Assembly (NCBI GenBank): GCA_009692425.1
Contig: SHZF01000023.1
Coordinates: forward strand, 1 to 58,630
Direction: 5' to 3'
Origin: Myxococcales bacterium
GTDB taxonomy: Bacteria; Myxococcota_A; UBA9042
Length of the DNA stretch: 58,630 bases
Shown here piece after piece: positions 14,046 to 57,756 of this stretch. The notes under the pieces were generated by a model, which did not search any database, was not told the DNA's origin, and saw nothing but the letters and a program-made list of their open reading frames with translations. The position numbers were made by a program, and so were the translations under genes. How positions within the stretch are numbered: position 1 is the first letter of the stretch; every line of letters begins with the position of its first letter.

Positions 14046-17000
14046 ATGAATCCGACTGCCGCCTTTTCCCGCCTGCACCGAACCGCGCTGCCGGGCCTGT
14101 TGGGCCTGCTGGTCAGTGCGGCCGTGGCGTGCAGCGACGCTCCCCCGGCGCCGAAGCCGGGCACCACGGCGACCGACGCCAAGGGCGCAGACAGCAGCGT
14201 CAACCTCGGCGACGCGGCCAAGGCGGACACCGGGGCGAGCACAGACGGTGTCACTTTGGGCAAGGACGGCGCCCAACCGGGGTCCGATCTGGCGGTCGAT
14301 GACGCCGCGCCCCCGGTGTCGTGCAAGGACGATCTGGGCTGCAAGGACAAGGTCGCGCTCAAGCCGTGCGAAGTCGCGACGTGCGACGTGGTGGCCGGCC
14401 TGTGCAAGGCGATGGCCGCTGCCGACGACACCGAGTGCGACACGACCGGCAACGCGTGCGCCGATGGCCAAGGCAAGTGCAAGGCGGGCGCGTGCACGGT
14501 CAAGGGCGTCTCTTGCGACGACGGCAACGTCTGCACCGACGACAGTTGCGAGCCGACGAAGGGCTGCCAGTACGCCAACAACACCGGGAGTTGCGACGAC
14601 GGCAAGGCATGCACCAGTGGCGACGCCTGCACCGACGGCAAGTGCGCGCCGACGAAGGATGAGTGCGTCACGCAAGAAAACGACTGCGGCAACGCCAAGG
14701 ACGACGATCTGGACGGCGCGGTGGACTGCGACGACTCCGACTGTGCGCCGTTGGATGCGTGCAAGAACAGCAAGGAGACGGACTGCGGCGACAAGGCCGA
14801 CAACGACAAGGACGGCAAGATCGACTGCGCCGACGCGGACTGCGGCACCGATCCGGGCTGCGTCACCCCGGCGCTCGAAAAGGACTGTGCGAACAAGCTC
14901 GACGACGACGGCGACAAGTCGATCGACTGCGACGACAACGACTGCGCGGCCGACGCGGCGTGTGCCAAGCCGACCAAGGAAGCGGATTGTGCCAACAAGA
15001 TCGATGACGACCAGGACGCCAAGATCGACTGCCAGGACAGCGACTGCACGCAGGACGCGGCCTGCAAGCCCGCGCTGCCCGAGGCGAACTGCACGAACAA
15101 GATCGACGACGACCAGGATGGCGCCGCCGACTGCCTCGACAACGACTGCGGCGCGGACCTGGCGTGCCAGTCGACGCAGACCGGCGCCGAAGTGAACTGC
15201 GCCAACAAGATCGACGACGACAAGGACGGCAAGATCGATTGCCTCGACACGGACTGCGCGAAAATCCAGGCGTGCGCGGTGCCGCCCGTGCCCGAGACGA
15301 ACTGCACGAACAAGATTGACGACGACAAGGACGGCAAGATCGACTGCAACGACGCCGACTGCGCCAAGGATGCGGCGTGCACGACGAAGTGCGCCCACGA
15401 CCTGTGCGCGGCCGGGGCACCGTTGCTGGCAGGCTGCGACCCGTGCGTGCAGAAGGTCTGCGACGACGACGGCTTTTGCTGCGGCGAGTTCGGCGGCACG
15501 TGGGACGAAGTGTGCGTCAAGTCGATGACGCAACTGTGCGGCAAGCAGTGCGGGGCGGCCAAGGAATCGGACTGCAAGAACAAGGTCGACGACGACCTCG
15601 ACGGCATGGTCGACTGCACGGACAACGACTGCGCGGCCGACCTGGCGTGTGCAGCCACGGGCTGCGTGGCCGACGGCAAGCTGGCGTGTGGCGGCTCTGG
15701 CACCCACAGCAACGGCGGGCCGGGCAGCACCAACAAGCTGGCGACGTATGCGTGTGCCGACGGCCCGGCCAACAACGAGACGGGGCCCGAGTATGCGTAC
15801 ACGTTCGAGGCGGAGTGCGACGGAGCGCTGACGGTCACTGTGCAGAAGACGACGACGAAGACCGGCTTCCTCGACTTGTTCGTTCTCGACGGTGCCAAGG
15901 GCTGCGCGGCCAACACGTGCCTGGCGCACGGGCTGATGAACGCCACGTCGGGCACTTCGGCCGTGACCGTCAAGGACGCCAAGAAGGGCCAGAAGTACAT
16001 CGCGCTGGTCGACGGGTTCGCGCAGTTCACGGGCGATTTCAGCCTCAAAGTGGCGTGTGGCTGCGCCGGTGGCAAGGAAGTGGCGTGCGGCGACAAGCTC
16101 GACAACGACGGCGACACGCTGGCCGACTGCGCGGACAACGACTGCGCGGTGACGCCCCTGTGCACGACGGCGACCGAAACGGTGTGTGCGGACAAGATCG
16201 ACAACGACAAGGACGGCACGGTCGATTGCAGCGACGCCGACTGCGCCAAGGACCTCGCGTGCCAGTCGACGACGACGGAGCAGAACTGCATCGACAAGGT
16301 CGACAACGACAAGGACGCGAAGATCGACTGCGCCGACACCGACTGCGCCAAGGACCTTGCGTGCACCGCACCGCCGGCCGAGGCCGACTGCAAGAACAAG
16401 CTCGACGACGACAAGGACGGCAAGATCGACTGCCTGGACCCCGACTGCGCCAAGGACGCCGCGTGCGTCGTGGTCGGCGAGACGAACTGCACGGACAAGG
16501 TCGACAACGACAAGGACGGCAAGGCGGATTGCCTCGATGTCGACTGCATCGGCAACGCCGCGTGCACGTGCAAGGGCAGCTATCCGCTGGCGTGCGGCGC
16601 GTCCGACAGCTGGACGAGCGCCGGCTTCGGCTCGACGAAGGTCGTGAACCACTACGTGTGCTCGGACGGCATCGCGTCGAACCAGACCGGCGCCGAGTAC
16701 ACCTATGACTACACGTCGCAGTGCGATGGCACGCTGACGGTGACGGTGACGCGCAAGGGGACCACGGCGGGATTTCTCGACCTGTTCGTGCTCGACGCGG
16801 CCAAGGGCTGCAACGGCTCGACGTGCCTGGCGCACGCGGCGATGATCAACAACGTCGCCACGAAGACGCTGCCGGTCAAGAAGGGCCAGAAGCTGTTCCT
16901 GACGGTCGATGGCTACCAGAACTTCGCGGGCGCCTACGACATCAAGGCCGCCTGCAAGTGCACGCTGCCCCCCGAAACGAAGTGTGCCAACAAGCTCGAC

Positions 17001-18305
17001 GACGACAAGGACGGCCAGATCGACTGCCTCGACACCGACTGCGCCAAGGACCTCGCGTGCACCGCGACGCCGACGGCCGAGCTGAACTGCACGGACAAGA
17101 TCGACAACGACAAGGACGGCAAGCTCGACTGCCTCGACACCGACTGCGCCAAGGACCTCGCGTGCACCGCGACGCCGACGGCCGAGTTGAACTGCACGGA
17201 CAAGCTCGACAACGACAAGGACGGCAAGCTCGACTGCCTCGACACCGACTGCGCCAAGGACGCCGCGTGCGCGCCCGTGGGCACCGTCGAGACGAAGTGC
17301 ACCGACAAGCTCGACGACGACAAGGACGGCAAGATCGACTGCGCCGACTCCGACTGCGTGGGCAAGGCGGGCTGCGTGTGCACGGCGACCGAGGCGCTTG
17401 CGTGCGGTGGGCAGGACAAGGCGTCGAACGGCGGCGCGGGCAGCACGAAGGCCGTCACCGACTACACCTGCGGCACGAGCAAGTACACCGGCGAGAGCGG
17501 CCCCGAGTACGCGTACAGCTACACGGCGAGTTGCGACGGGCTGGTGACGGCGACGGTAAAGCGCGAAGCGGGTGCGTTCGGCTTCCTCGACCTGTTCGTG
17601 CTCGACGCGGCCACCGGCAAGCCCTGCGCTGGGTCGGCGTGCGTGGCGGGCGCGCTGATGCTGGGCGACACGACAAAGGTCACGTTCCAGGGCAAGAAGG
17701 GCGCCAAGTACGCTCTCGTCGTCGATGGGTTCAACAACTTCACCGGCAACTACACGATCGGCGCCTCGTGCGCGTGCGCGCTGCCGCCCAAGGAGGTGAA
17801 CTGCGCCGACAAGAAGGACGACGACGGCGATGGCAAGATCGACTGCCTCGACACCGACTGCGCGGGCGACCCGGCGTGTGCCGGCGCCAAGGACTGCAAG
17901 GACGACCTGCCGCTGCTGTGCGGCGGCACCGACGACTGGAACAACAGCGACGACGGCAGCACGAAGGTCGTCTCGGCCTACCAGTGCACCGACGGCAACA
18001 TCGCCGGCGAAACGGGCCCCGAGTACAGCTACGCATTCGTGGCGGAGTGCACCGGCCAGACGACCGTGAAGTTGCAGAAGACCGGCTTTTTCGCGACCGC
18101 CCTGCTCGACATCTTCATCTTGGATGGCGACAAGGCCTGCAATGGCGCGGCGTGCCTGGCGCACGAACTGATGGATCCGTTCGCGGCCTCGGTGCAGAAG
18201 ACGTTCGCGACGGTCAAGGGCAAGAAGTACCACGTGGTCGTCGACGGCTACCAAGGCGGCAGCGCGGACTATGCGATCAGCGTGAACTGCGTCTGCCCGA
18301 AGTAG
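14046..18305 (+). CDS. Giant Cys/Asp-repeat surface lipoprotein with PPC-like domains
   Basis: 1419 aa. A signal peptide ends at a lipobox (SAAVAC, Cys29), followed by an Ala/Asp linker. I count 18 copies of a roughly 28-residue unit of the form C-x-(N/D)-K-x-D-D/N-D-x-D-G-x-x-D-C-x-D-x-D-C. Each has calcium-loop-like aspartates and three or four cysteines. They resemble the short Asp-rich repeats of Myxococcota secreted proteins and thrombospondin type 3 repeats. Between blocks lie four copies of a roughly 90-residue beta domain ending GFLDLFVLD...LVDGF, similar to bacterial pre-peptidase C-terminal (PPC) domains. ATG 14046 follows an AGGAGCC ribosome site. Probably calcium-binding and exposed; function unknown, adhesion is a guess. 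Confidence 0.85.
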   Translation: MNPTAAFSRLHRTALPGLLGLLVSAAVACSDAPPAPKPGTTATDAKGADSSVNLGDAAKADTGASTDGVTLGKDGAQPGSDLAVDDAAPPVSCKDDLGCKDKVALKPCEVATCDVVAGLCKAMAAADDTECDTTGNACADGQGKCKAGACTVKGVSCDDGNVCTDDSCEPTKGCQYANNTGSCDDGKACTSGDACTDGKCAPTKDECVTQENDCGNAKDDDLDGAVDCDDSDCAPLDACKNSKETDCGDKADNDKDGKIDCADADCGTDPGCVTPALEKDCANKLDDDGDKSIDCDDNDCAADAACAKPTKEADCANKIDDDQDAKIDCQDSDCTQDAACKPALPEANCTNKIDDDQDGAADCLDNDCGADLACQSTQTGAEVNCANKIDDDKDGKIDCLDTDCAKIQACAVPPVPETNCTNKIDDDKDGKIDCNDADCAKDAACTTKCAHDLCAAGAPLLAGCDPCVQKVCDDDGFCCGEFGGTWDEVCVKSMTQLCGKQCGAAKESDCKNKVDDDLDGMVDCTDNDCAADLACAATGCVADGKLACGGSGTHSNGGPGSTNKLATYACADGPANNETGPEYAYTFEAECDGALTVTVQKTTTKTGFLDLFVLDGAKGCAANTCLAHGLMNATSGTSAVTVKDAKKGQKYIALVDGFAQFTGDFSLKVACGCAGGKEVACGDKLDNDGDTLADCADNDCAVTPLCTTATETVCADKIDNDKDGTVDCSDADCAKDLACQSTTTEQNCIDKVDNDKDAKIDCADTDCAKDLACTAPPAEADCKNKLDDDKDGKIDCLDPDCAKDAACVVVGETNCTDKVDNDKDGKADCLDVDCIGNAACTCKGSYPLACGASDSWTSAGFGSTKVVNHYVCSDGIASNQTGAEYTYDYTSQCDGTLTVTVTRKGTTAGFLDLFVLDAAKGCNGSTCLAHAAMINNVATKTLPVKKGQKLFLTVDGYQNFAGAYDIKAACKCTLPPETKCANKLDDDKDGQIDCLDTDCAKDLACTATPTAELNCTDKIDNDKDGKLDCLDTDCAKDLACTATPTAELNCTDKLDNDKDGKLDCLDTDCAKDAACAPVGTVETKCTDKLDDDKDGKIDCADSDCVGKAGCVCTATEALACGGQDKASNGGAGSTKAVTDYTCGTSKYTGESGPEYAYSYTASCDGLVTATVKREAGAFGFLDLFVLDAATGKPCAGSACVAGALMLGDTTKVTFQGKKGAKYALVVDGFNNFTGNYTIGASCACALPPKEVNCADKKDDDGDGKIDCLDTDCAGDPACAGAKDCKDDLPLLCGGTDDWNNSDDGSTKVVSAYQCTDGNIAGETGPEYSYAFVAECTGQTTVKLQKTGFFATALLDIFILDGDKACNGAACLAHELMDPFAASVQKTFATVKGKKYHVVVDGYQGGSADYAISVNCVCPK

Positions 18306-49669: not shown

Positions 49670-51865
<2,196 letters not shown>

Positions 51866-51906
51866 TGGCGGTCCTGGGCCCGGGGCTCGGAGTTCCGGAC
51901 CGAGCC

Positions 51907-51934
51907 ATGGTAGGCCAAGCAGCGCGAAGGGCAA
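51907..51934 (-). promoter_or_regulatory. Putative promoter of the kinase gene
   Basis: Minus strand: TTGCCC, 16 bp, TACCAT, about 42 bp before GTG 51865. Confidence 0.4.
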
Positions 51935-52096
51935 CGGCCGGCGTCGGCCCGGATCCGCCGACATGGGCCCATCTGCGTCGTTTTGGCGGCGGCGTCTACA
52001 CAAGATCGACTTGGCGCCGCCTGCGCAGTTGCCGTGGGCGGCGAACTTGACGCGACCCGAGGTGGGTTCGACGATGCCCGGCGGAGGACATGAACC

Positions 52097-52575
52097 ATGA
52101 CAAGACGTTGCGCGATGGTCTTGGGCCTGTTGCTGGCAGCGGGGTGCTTGAGTGTGGGACCGGCTGGCTAGACCGGAACGCTGCCGGTCCAGACCGGCTT
52201 GGATGTGGCTACCGACGCATCGGCCGCGGCCGAAGGCAAGACGCCGCCGGATGCGGCCGCTGGATCGAGTGCCCGTTGACCTACACGCCCGAGTGCATCG
52301 ACGGCTCACAGAAGGCCGGCAGGTACATTTGCAGCACGGCGTTGGGGGCCAAGTGCGAGACGTCGTGGTACATCAATTGGCCGATCAGCGACGGCCCGCA
52401 CTTCTGCGCCCAGAAGGAGATCGAGTGCCCAGCGGTCGGCGCCGAACTGCCCGGCGAAATCCTGTGCGGCGGCCCGGCTGGCCCCGTGGTTCCCGGCAAG
52501 CAGAAGTGCCAGAACGGCGACTGCGGCTCCAAGTACTGGTCGCTGTGCTGGGGCGACAAACCCTGCCCCAAGTAG
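52097..52575 (+). pseudogene. Cys-rich lipoprotein gene with a stop and a frameshift
   Basis: ATG 52097, 9 bp after a GGAGG site, begins a clear lipoprotein signal peptide (MTRRCAMVLGLLLAAGCLSV) but meets a TAG at 52169. The same frame then continues TGTLPVQTGLDVATDAS, a typical linker, to a TGA near 52277. The Cys-rich mature domain (CPLTYTPECIDGSQKAGRYI, CSTALGAKCETSWYINWPIS, KCQNGDCGSKYWSLCWGD) is in the next frame and ends at 52575. Two lesions are needed to explain this, so it is a pseudogene or doubly misread. The domain resembles the secreted proteins at 4.7-5.5 kb in style. Confidence 0.65.
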
Positions 52576-52597: not shown

Positions 52598-54157
52598 CTA
52601 CAGCGCGCCGACGACCTTGCTCGCGCACGCGTCCTTGCCGTTCTTCTCTTCCCATTGCACCGCAGCCTTGACGGCCTCGGAGCGCGTCGGCCCGAGCGGC
52701 AGGCCCTTGTGCAGCATCGCGACGTCGTTCTTCTTGAAGCCGCCCTGCGAACACAGCGCGCGCGCGACCTGGGCGAGACACTTGGCGCCGAACGGTCGAC
52801 CGACCAGGTAGCCGGCGACCTCCTTGCCCGCGATCATTTCAGCCTGCTGTGTCACGATGTCGCAATTGCCGGGCGTCTTGGACAACTGCGCCTCGATCCA
52901 GCGCGCGACGAAAAGGTCGGCGATGGTCTGGTGGCCGAATTTCCACTGCGGCGTGGTCGCCACCATCGGCTCGAAAAGCACCGATTGGAAAATTTTCTCG
53001 CAGACCTGCCGCGCGTCCGGCCCGGCGTCTCCCGGCTGGGCCTGGACGCAGCGCTCGACCTTGAACGCGAGGTTCCAGTCGCCGTCGACGATGGCGCCGT
53101 TGGTCACCATGGCATCGACCAGCCCAAGAACCCGCGGGCCGTCCCAGCCTATGTGCTGCAGTTCCTTGAGCAGGCGCTCGGCCAGGATCGCCTCGTGCAC
53201 CGTGGCCAGGTTCGAGCGCAGGCCGCCCATCTCTGCGTCGGGCTGGAATGCCTTGGCCAGCCGCTGCACGACCTGGACGTCGCGGTAGGTCGCCAGATAC
53301 GGAAAGTAGCACTGCTGCCCGACCAGGCTTTGGCGATCGAGGTGCCATGTCTCGACGAACGCCGCCATGCGCGCCTTGTCTTCGTCGTCCTCCGACAGGC
53401 GTGTCAGGTTCGAGCGCGCGCGGCCACAGTCGAGCGGGGGCACCTCGAGGTGTCCGTCGAGGCCCTGGAGCCCGTAGGTGACGTCGAACACGGCGGGCCG
53501 ACCCATCACGACGACCTGCACCGCCTTGAACTGCGCGCGAAGCGCAGCCAGCGCGGCCAGCGCGGCGGGGCGGCGGGCGGCGGGCAGTTCCTCGATGCTG
53601 TCGAGCACGAGCACCCAGCGCTGGCGGCCGAGCATGTCGACGAGACCCCCGCGCTGTTCGGGGGCCGCCATGCCGCTCTGCGTCGCCACGGCGCCGACCA
53701 GCGTGTTGGCGTCTTGCCCGCCCGGCTGCAGAAAGAGTTCGCGCAGGTCGGCGCGAAACGTCGGCACCGTGTTGCAGATTTCGGCCGCGATCGCCTTGGA
53801 CATCTCGCTCTTGCCAATGCCGCCGCGCGCTTGGACGTGGACAAAGCGGGCCCGACCGCTGCGCAGGGCTTCGAGCAGGTCGGCCTCCGGGATCATGCCG
53901 TCGGCTTCGGGTGTGGGCTCGTCGATCCACCGGATCACCTTGAGCTTGGGCGGCAGGTAGGCGAGGTCCTTGATGGACTGGGCGTGCAAGGTGGCGGCCT
54001 CACGGCACGCGCTGACCAGCCCCGCAGCGCGGTCGAGCGATGCGGGCGTGTCCGACGGGGATTGGGCGCCGCCACATGCGGCGAGTGGGCCAATGGCCAG
54101 GGTCACGGCGGCAAGCTGGGTCGCGGTGGCAAGAGCGAGCGAGCAAAGGGTGTGCAT
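52598..54157 (-). CDS. Lipoprotein-type STAND/NACHT-like NTPase
   Basis: 519 aa. The N-terminus (TATQLAAVTLAIGPLAAC, lipobox Cys28) is a lipoprotein signal peptide like those of clear surface lipoproteins nearby. A P-loop NTPase domain follows: Walker A GGIGKS at about 112-118 after VHVQA, and Walker B WVLVLDSIEEL at about 181-191, then VVVMGRPAVFDV, the layout of STAND/NACHT ATPases. The C-terminal 250 residues are helical with a WKFGHQTIADLFVARWI segment as in NACHT proteins. Ten further cysteines lie after the lipobox, which fits an oxidising compartment. An exported STAND ATPase would be unusual, since ATP is scarce outside the cytoplasm. Divergent from the next gene. Confidence 0.75.
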   Translation of the reverse strand: MHTLCSLALATATQLAAVTLAIGPLAACGGAQSPSDTPASLDRAAGLVSACREAATLHAQSIKDLAYLPPKLKVIRWIDEPTPEADGMIPEADLLEALRSGRARFVHVQARGGIGKSEMSKAIAAEICNTVPTFRADLRELFLQPGGQDANTLVGAVATQSGMAAPEQRGGLVDMLGRQRWVLVLDSIEELPAARRPAALAALAALRAQFKAVQVVVMGRPAVFDVTYGLQGLDGHLEVPPLDCGRARSNLTRLSEDDEDKARMAAFVETWHLDRQSLVGQQCYFPYLATYRDVQVVQRLAKAFQPDAEMGGLRSNLATVHEAILAERLLKELQHIGWDGPRVLGLVDAMVTNGAIVDGDWNLAFKVERCVQAQPGDAGPDARQVCEKIFQSVLFEPMVATTPQWKFGHQTIADLFVARWIEAQLSKTPGNCDIVTQQAEMIAGKEVAGYLVGRPFGAKCLAQVARALCSQGGFKKNDVAMLHKGLPLGPTRSEAVKAAVQWEEKNGKDACASKVVGAL

Positions 54158-56043: not shown

Positions 56044-57756
56044 ATGCAACGCCAGCACCGTTCGAGCCGTCATTTTGCCTACGTCACCGCCGAGATCGGG
56101 CTGACGACCGCGATCCCCACCTATTCGGGCGGCCTGGGTGTGCTGGCCGGTGACCATATCAAGGCGTGCGCCGACCTGGGTGTGCCACTGGTCGGCGTGA
56201 CGCTTTTCTACAAGCAGGGCTACGGGATGCAGAGCGTCGACACGTACGGCGAGCAGCACCTCGATTTCCCGCTGTGCGACCCCCAGGACGTGCTCGAGAA
56301 CACGGGCGCGCTCGTCGAACTCCAGTTCGAGGGCGAGACCGTGCGCATCCAGACCTGGCGGCGATGGGTGGTGGGGCGCCACGGCCACCGCGTGCCCGTG
56401 TTCTTTCTCGACACCGACGTCGATGGCAACAGCCCGGTGTGGCGGCCCGTGTCGAACCTGCTGTACGGCGGCGACAACCTGAACCGCCTGCGCCAGGAGG
56501 CGATCCTCGGCTTCGGCGGCTACGCGGTCGTCAAGGCGATGGGCTACGGCGACCACTTATGCGCGCACCTGAACGAAGGCCACACGGCGTTCTTCGCCGC
56601 CGCCTTCTGCAAGGACCTCGGCTCGGTCGCAGCCGTGCGCCAGCGCGTGCACTTCACCACCCACACGCCCGTGCCGGCGGGCTACGACAAGTTCGAGCAG
56701 AAGGACGTGCAGCGCATCGTCGGCGCCCAACTCTCCGAAGAACTCGCCGCGCTCGGCGGTGCCGACAGCCTGAACATGGCCCATCTCGCGGCGGCGCTGT
56801 CGGCAAGCGTCAACGGGGTCAGCCACATCAATGCGCGCGTGGCGCAGTCCCTGTTCGACGGCGTCCAGATCGAGGCCGTGACGAACGGCGTCCACTTCGA
56901 CACCTGGGTCAGCCCCGAGATGGGCGCGCTCTACGACGAATACCTGCGCGGCTGGCGCGACGACCCCACCTTGCTGGTGGGCATCGGCGGCGTGGACTCG
57001 ACCGACTTCGACGTCGCGCGCAGCCGTGCCAAGCACGAACTGCTCGAGTACGCCAACGGCATGACGCAACTCGGCTTCGACGAGGACGTGCTCACGCTGG
57101 GTTTCGCGCGGCGCGTCGCTCCGTACAAGCGCGCGCTGCTGATCTTCAGCGACCTGGACCGCCTGCTCGACCTGGGGCGCGGACGGTTGCAGATCCTGTT
57201 TGCCGGCAAGGCGCACCAGAACGATGCCGAGGGGCGCAAGCTGGTGCGCGAACTCGTGGCGCTGTCGCACAAGCTGCGCGGCGACCTGCGCGTGGGGTTT
57301 CTCACGAACTACAACATGTGGCTCGGACACAAGCTGACTTCGGGCGTCGATATCTGGCTGAACAATCCCGTGCGGCCGCTCGAAGCTTGCGGCACGTCGG
57401 GGATGAAGGCGGTGCTCAACGGCGTGCCGAACCTGAGCGTGCTCGACGGGTGGTGGGCCGAGGCGTGTACGGACGGCGTCAACGGTTGGGCGGTCGGCGC
57501 GGGCTCCGAAGAGCGGGACGACGAGCGTGACGCCGAGTTTCTGTACACGACGCTGGAAACGCGCGTGTTGCCGGTGTTCTACGGCGACCGCAAGGCGTGG
57601 CGCGCGCTGCAGATGGCGGCGGTCGCAACGGCGCCCCAGTTCAGCGCCCAGCGCATGGTGCGCGAGTACACGGCGCGCTACTACGACTGGGTGCCGGGGC
57701 CAGCGGCGGTGCCGAAGTTGGCGGAGCGGTCAGGCCTGGCGGTGGGCGGCGCTTGA
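56044..57756 (+). CDS. glgP: Alpha-glucan (glycogen/maltodextrin) phosphorylase
   Basis: 570 aa. Releases glucose-1-phosphate from alpha-1,4-glucans; GT35 family, short type. The opening HFAYVTAEIGLTTAIPTYSG then GLGVLAGDHIKACADLG is the signature of short phosphorylases (about 550-600 aa core, versus about 800 for E. coli GlgP). The PLP-lysine motif ACGTSGMKAVLNG, phosphate-binding GFARRVAPYKRALL and GWWAEACTDGVNGW are present. ATG 56044 opens the conserved core with no N-terminal DUF3417. The isolated position gives no hint of a glycogen operon. Confidence 0.93.
   Translation: MQRQHRSSRHFAYVTAEIGLTTAIPTYSGGLGVLAGDHIKACADLGVPLVGVTLFYKQGYGMQSVDTYGEQHLDFPLCDPQDVLENTGALVELQFEGETVRIQTWRRWVVGRHGHRVPVFFLDTDVDGNSPVWRPVSNLLYGGDNLNRLRQEAILGFGGYAVVKAMGYGDHLCAHLNEGHTAFFAAAFCKDLGSVAAVRQRVHFTTHTPVPAGYDKFEQKDVQRIVGAQLSEELAALGGADSLNMAHLAAALSASVNGVSHINARVAQSLFDGVQIEAVTNGVHFDTWVSPEMGALYDEYLRGWRDDPTLLVGIGGVDSTDFDVARSRAKHELLEYANGMTQLGFDEDVLTLGFARRVAPYKRALLIFSDLDRLLDLGRGRLQILFAGKAHQNDAEGRKLVRELVALSHKLRGDLRVGFLTNYNMWLGHKLTSGVDIWLNNPVRPLEACGTSGMKAVLNGVPNLSVLDGWWAEACTDGVNGWAVGAGSEERDDERDAEFLYTTLETRVLPVFYGDRKAWRALQMAAVATAPQFSAQRMVREYTARYYDWVPGPAAVPKLAERSGLAVGGA

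Follow-up and report, generated by a model that had tools for sequence, protein, structure and literature searches.

A conserved family of predicted lipoproteins with a NACHT-type ATPase module in a myxococcal lineage

Introduction

According to the textbook view, there is no ATP in the bacterial periplasm. A gene that appears to join an export signal to an intact ATPase site therefore raises the question of whether the combination is real and, if so, what such a protein would do. We analysed a gene of this kind in the window, a contig of 58,630 nucleotides (SHZF01000023.1) from a Myxococcales bacterium (assembly GCA_009692425.1). The original prediction described a STAND-like ATPase with a lipoprotein signal, intact Walker A and B motifs and ten cysteines, and named no described system of the kind. 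Literature searches agree with it in that they returned no described exported NACHT or STAND protein; their coverage was incomplete, hence novelty is not proven. An exported SecA-like protein was considered as a precedent and set aside, as the passages of its source (PMC4452313) on NACHT, ATP and the periplasm do not make it one.

Results

The gene and its motifs

The gene occupies positions 52598 to 54157 on the minus strand, as do all of its parts given below, and its open reading frame translates from an ATG start into 519 amino acids, with homologues in 24 genomes. Residues 1-27 form a predicted signal peptide (MHTLCSLALATATQLAAVTLAIGPLAA; 54077 to 54157), with cleavage expected before Cys28, and this position is kept in 82 members of the family. 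The n-region lacks Lys and Arg and has only His. The lipobox LAAC (54074 to 54085) fits the pattern [LVI][ASTVI][GAS]C, with Cys28 as the predicted lipidated residue and Gly at +2. Walker A reads ARGGIGKS (residues 110-117; 53807 to 53830) and includes Lys116, and Walker B reads WVLVLDSIEEL (53585 to 53617) and includes Asp186 and Glu190. A GRP/ARP motif at residues 219-221 (53495 to 53503) holds a sensor-type arginine, Arg220. Further along (52898 to 52939) is the motif F-x-H/N/D-Q-S/T-x-x-D-L-F-x-A-R-W, which we take to resemble the C-terminal motif of NACHT winged-helix regions. The protein has 12 cysteines: C5 in the signal peptide, C28 in the lipobox, and ten in the mature chain at residues 51, 128, 244, 283, 370, 386, 432, 460, 469 and 511 (52625 to 54007).

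Other features of the window were recorded by the way. A 21-base tandem repeat at 49693-49785 encodes the AADSAVR units found at the C-terminus of a membrane Ser/Thr kinase (49670-52309, minus strand). Several arrays of repeats of about 105 bases at 14991-17358 encode Asp/Cys-rich units, read by eye as DKxDNDKDGKIDCxDxDCAKD, which resemble cell-surface proteins with calcium-binding repeats.

Conservation of the export signal, the ATPase site and the cysteines

Residue counts are based on an alignment of 88 members extracted from fetched loci. The lipobox cysteine is kept in 82/83 members, and the sole member without it (in genome G051) still has a signal-like N-terminus. The n-region is net positive in 65/82 and neutral in 17/82; none is negative. 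Walker A follows ARGGxGKS/T, which fits GxxGxGK[ST], and its lysine is kept in 84/85. Walker B consists of hhhhD followed by an acidic pair (D-x-x-D/E-E), with Asp in 88/88, the D/E position in 86/88 and the final Glu in 86/88. The arginine of the ARP/GRP motif is present in 88/88 members, and in the winged-helix-like motif Arg419 is kept in 85/88 and Ala418 in 81/88. All ten mature-chain cysteine columns are near-invariant, each being kept in between 85/88 and 88/88. Three members lack both C244 and C283, and this joint loss suggests that the two residues would pair in a disulfide.

Joint conservation of the lipobox cysteine, the Walker residues and ten cysteine columns indicates that the observation is not due to chance, and predicted export together with a conserved ATPase site is well supported at the sequence level. 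Homologues that start after residue 30 and lack a signal peptide were not seen, and the Walker residues are kept in most of the homologues. The lipoprotein signal, the Walker motifs and the ten cysteines claimed from the single gene thus hold across the family, and they are conserved together. Of 13 ordinary NACHT-type proteins from this class, some of them truncated at the 5' boundary of their locus, none has a lipobox-like site.

Sorting of lipoproteins depends on the residue at +2, and the inner-membrane retention signal at this position in E. coli is Asp. In Myxococcus xanthus, inner-membrane lipoproteins are marked by Lys at +2 (PMC3222651). In the present family +2 is Gly or Ser in 75/82 members and Asp or Lys in 0/82, so by the M. 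xanthus rule the proteins are likely to sit on the outer membrane, although the sorting rules of this lineage may differ.

Fold and class assignment

STAND/NACHT identity had been proposed from the sequence, and fold comparison upholds it. An AlphaFold2 model of the mature window protein, built with 15 relatives, reached pLDDT 85 and pTM 0.83. It presents the 492-residue mature chain as a short N-terminal helix followed by a NACHT module. The best Foldseek matches were NLRC4 (1.1e-9), NOD2 (1.1e-8) and NLRP3 (1.9e-8), all with probability 1.00 over about 500 columns. The TM score was 0.55 against the active NLRC4 disk (inflammasome) vs. about 0.37 against closed forms. Profile matches lie below the Pfam cut-offs: the window protein matches AAA_16 alone (20.9 bits, cut-off 32.6), and the best family member reaches 24.8 bits against NACHT (gathering cut-off 26.7). 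The mature chain has no effector and no repeat sensor domain (LRR, TPR), and thus departs from the tripartite layout. We read the modelled protein as a diverged NACHT module, NBD-HD1-WHD-HD2, without effector or repeat sensor, and refer to the family as lipoNACHT.

Distribution and descent

The window's genome (4.94 Mb in 137 contigs, 96% complete) holds four paralogues of the window protein. In three of them a lipobox is present and the Walker motifs are intact. The remaining one (G000:C67:45583-46869, L005/L039) has a broken Walker A (GLGTT, with the Lys lost), an early end and no C-terminal four cysteines, and its signal would fit either type I or lipoprotein; it is perhaps a decaying or repurposed copy.

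Profile searches found lipoNACHT homologues in 22/22 genomes of the window's family, with 2-6 copies each, and in two genomes of the same class, G026 and G051, each of another family. In the rest of the phylum the only matches were partial ones, to NACHT-type proteins that are long and of the ordinary kind. Named relatives are metagenome-assembled genomes labelled Myxococcales, Deltaproteobacteria or Proteobacteria, many of them from lakes, to judge by isolate names, and no cultured member of the family was among these records. The tree (FastTree, midpoint-rooted) has deep lipoNACHT paralogue groups that are kept by descent.

Other origins were considered. Carriage as phage or plasmid cargo was rejected, as tblastn gave no match to the family in either the phage or the plasmid collection. 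A viral fold search gave generic AAA+ matches only, and the single weak NCBIfam match, of one member to a holin, was taken as chance. A gene-call artefact or lone oddity was likewise rejected, since the signal is common to the four paralogues and dozens of homologues.

Gene neighbourhood

In several other genera, the window's orthologue group lies in a conserved, co-directional operon with the order GH13-GH13-lipoNACHT (one or two copies)-OMP-lipoprotein-hydrolase-NTT, in which the NTT gene is often last. The OMP, lipoprotein and hydrolase genes encode three further proteins with export signals. The GH13 pair are glycogen-type enzymes with CBM_48 and alpha-amylase domains. The product of the OMP-like gene is rich in Pro and begins with a signal peptide; it has no Pfam match and, by eye, looks like an outer-membrane barrel. 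The small lipoprotein carries an invariant cysteine. The Cys-rich lipoprotein has, by eye, a hydrolase-like motif (GHSQG) and no convincing Pfam match. The OMP-like and hydrolase-like proteins (L189, L194, L187 and related loci) also have strong matches in some lipoNACHT-free members of the class.

The window's own copy and several others lie outside this operon. In the window's genome the OMP and hydrolase genes are on contig C32 and the NTT gene on C43. A glycogen phosphorylase-like gene (56044 to 57756, plus strand; Pfam PF00343, 6.5e-23) lies 2 kb from the window's copy.

Parts of the operon recur in another family. In G026, the OMP-lipoprotein-hydrolase-NTT set extends up to a contig end. 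At a different contig end the HEAT part starts, with lipoNACHT behind it, as would be expected if assembly had split a single locus. The second lipoNACHT copy of this genome is directly behind a double cNMP-binding protein. In G051, from a third family, an NTT-HEAT-cNMP gene is directly upstream of lipoNACHT. In two different families, lipoNACHT genes that belong to other paralogue groups also have a neighbour encoding a protein with a cNMP-binding domain (L043:9492-10595, L093:5406-6701). In one genus, a gene for a SurA-type periplasmic chaperone is directly before the lipoNACHT gene (L066:5977-8586).

The NTT-HEAT-cNMP gene

The operon-linked NTT gene encodes an ATP/ADP-translocase-like NTT-HEAT-cNMP membrane protein, which matches TIGR00769 (1.3e-6), PF03219 (3e-7) and the chloroplast ATP/ADP carrier 9j3j (0.0032). 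PF03219 is matched by 2/5 linked members, the best at 3e-7 and L094 with 27.0 bits (cut-off 21); L063, 46% identical to L094, does not match it. A Glu of the plant carrier is unmatched in the aligned stretch of the linked proteins, so transport by them is uncertain.

Of the genomes in the class, 22/24 with lipoNACHT have a strong NTT match (E<1e-90) vs. 1/28 without lipoNACHT (Fisher 2e-11, uncorrected for kinship). Outside the home family the figures are 2/2 vs. 1/28 (p 0.007). Most home-family genomes are related, and the co-occurrence thus does not represent many independent events. NTT-HEAT relatives are widespread in the phylum in genomes that have no lipoNACHT. The carrier is therefore not reserved for lipoNACHT everywhere, and an exclusive partnership was rejected.

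Discussion

The locus belongs to a real, conserved and unusual family rather than being a single odd gene; its fold is known and, as far as we found, its compartment is new. The family is kept vertically, and its members are probably disulfide-bonded. We consider it reasonably probable that lipoNACHT is an exported, lipid-anchored NACHT switch or scaffold that acts on envelope partners, with nucleotide perhaps supplied through the NTT protein.

We infer that the window protein would be exported by Sec and then lipidated at Cys28. Its NBD-HD1-WHD-HD2 module would then face the periplasm, and Gly at +2 makes the outer membrane its probable site. There it would bind nucleotide in the envelope and most likely serve as a nucleotide-dependent switch or oligomerising scaffold, whose output would fall on other proteins of the envelope. 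For the orthologue group of the window protein, the OMP-type protein, the small lipoprotein and the Cys-rich lipoprotein hydrolase of the operon are the likely partners. Genome context suggests an ATP source other than lysed prey or neighbours, namely the cell's own NTT-type carrier, whose gene several lineages have within the operon or next to it, and periplasmic nucleotide may come from this carrier. A more specific version, in which NTT-HEAT-cNMP would export ATP across the inner membrane and so power outer-membrane-anchored NACHT switches on the co-encoded envelope proteins as an ATP-energised periplasmic machine, is a tentative possibility.

The main rival explanation is that the exported P-loop senses nucleotide from outside (lysed prey, neighbours or self-released ATP) as a signal and that the NTT link is incidental or reflects salvage. 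The P-loop and sensor Arg are conserved, NTTs are known chiefly as importers (PMC5381601), and release of ATP by bacteria is reported (PMC7432876, PMC6335424). However, a sensor domain such as LRR or TPR is absent, the protein would be placed by a lipid anchor and not secreted, and 2-6 vertically kept copies look core, not accessory. We regard extracellular sensing as unlikely.

An exported scaffold whose P-loop binds another ligand or is structural, for example with a permanent nucleotide loaded before or during export, is quite improbable. NACHT folds are generally known to tolerate tight ADP binding, and disulfides would lock the fold. However, the Walker B acidic pair and the Arg are conserved to the same degree as Walker A, a sign of turnover or switching, and preloading would be hard since Sec export unfolds its cargo. 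It is very improbable that the protein is cytoplasmic, with the hydrophobic stretch an uncleaved anchor or gene-call artefact: a few ordinary NACHT proteins do have membrane parts and the window protein's n-region is neutral, but the lipobox cysteine (82/83), mostly positive n-regions (65/82), ten conserved cysteines and the lipobox-free controls (0/13) all argue against it.

A conserved and intact NACHT family with lipoprotein signals challenges the view of an ATP-free periplasm, or else requires that the envelope is supplied with nucleotide. If the preferred reading of an envelope-anchored switch is correct, NLR-like switches would also operate in a compartment new for them, and the NTT-HEAT-cNMP proteins would gain a possible role.

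Compared with NACHT-type STAND ATPases and NLRs (NLRC4, NOD2, NLRP3 and bacterial NACHT defence proteins), lipoNACHT shares the P-loop, the D-S-x-D/E-E Walker B, the R-P motif and the predicted NBD-HD1-WHD-HD2 fold. It differs in having a signal peptide, a lipobox and ten conserved cysteines, in lacking an effector or repeat sensor domain, and in occurring in every genome of its family rather than patchily. Torsins are AAA+ ATPases of the endoplasmic reticulum lumen and, as proposed for lipoNACHT, place a P-loop ATPase in an oxidising, exported compartment. They differ in belonging to another P-loop subclass, and the endoplasmic reticulum imports ATP whereas the bacterial periplasm has no established supply. 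NTT-HEAT-cNBD nucleotide-carrier fusions (PF03219/TIGR00769), described as of unknown function (PMC5381601), have the same three-domain architecture as the linked membrane gene. This architecture belongs to the neighbour and not to lipoNACHT itself and, as far as we found, such a fusion is here tied to a predicted exported ATPase for the first time.
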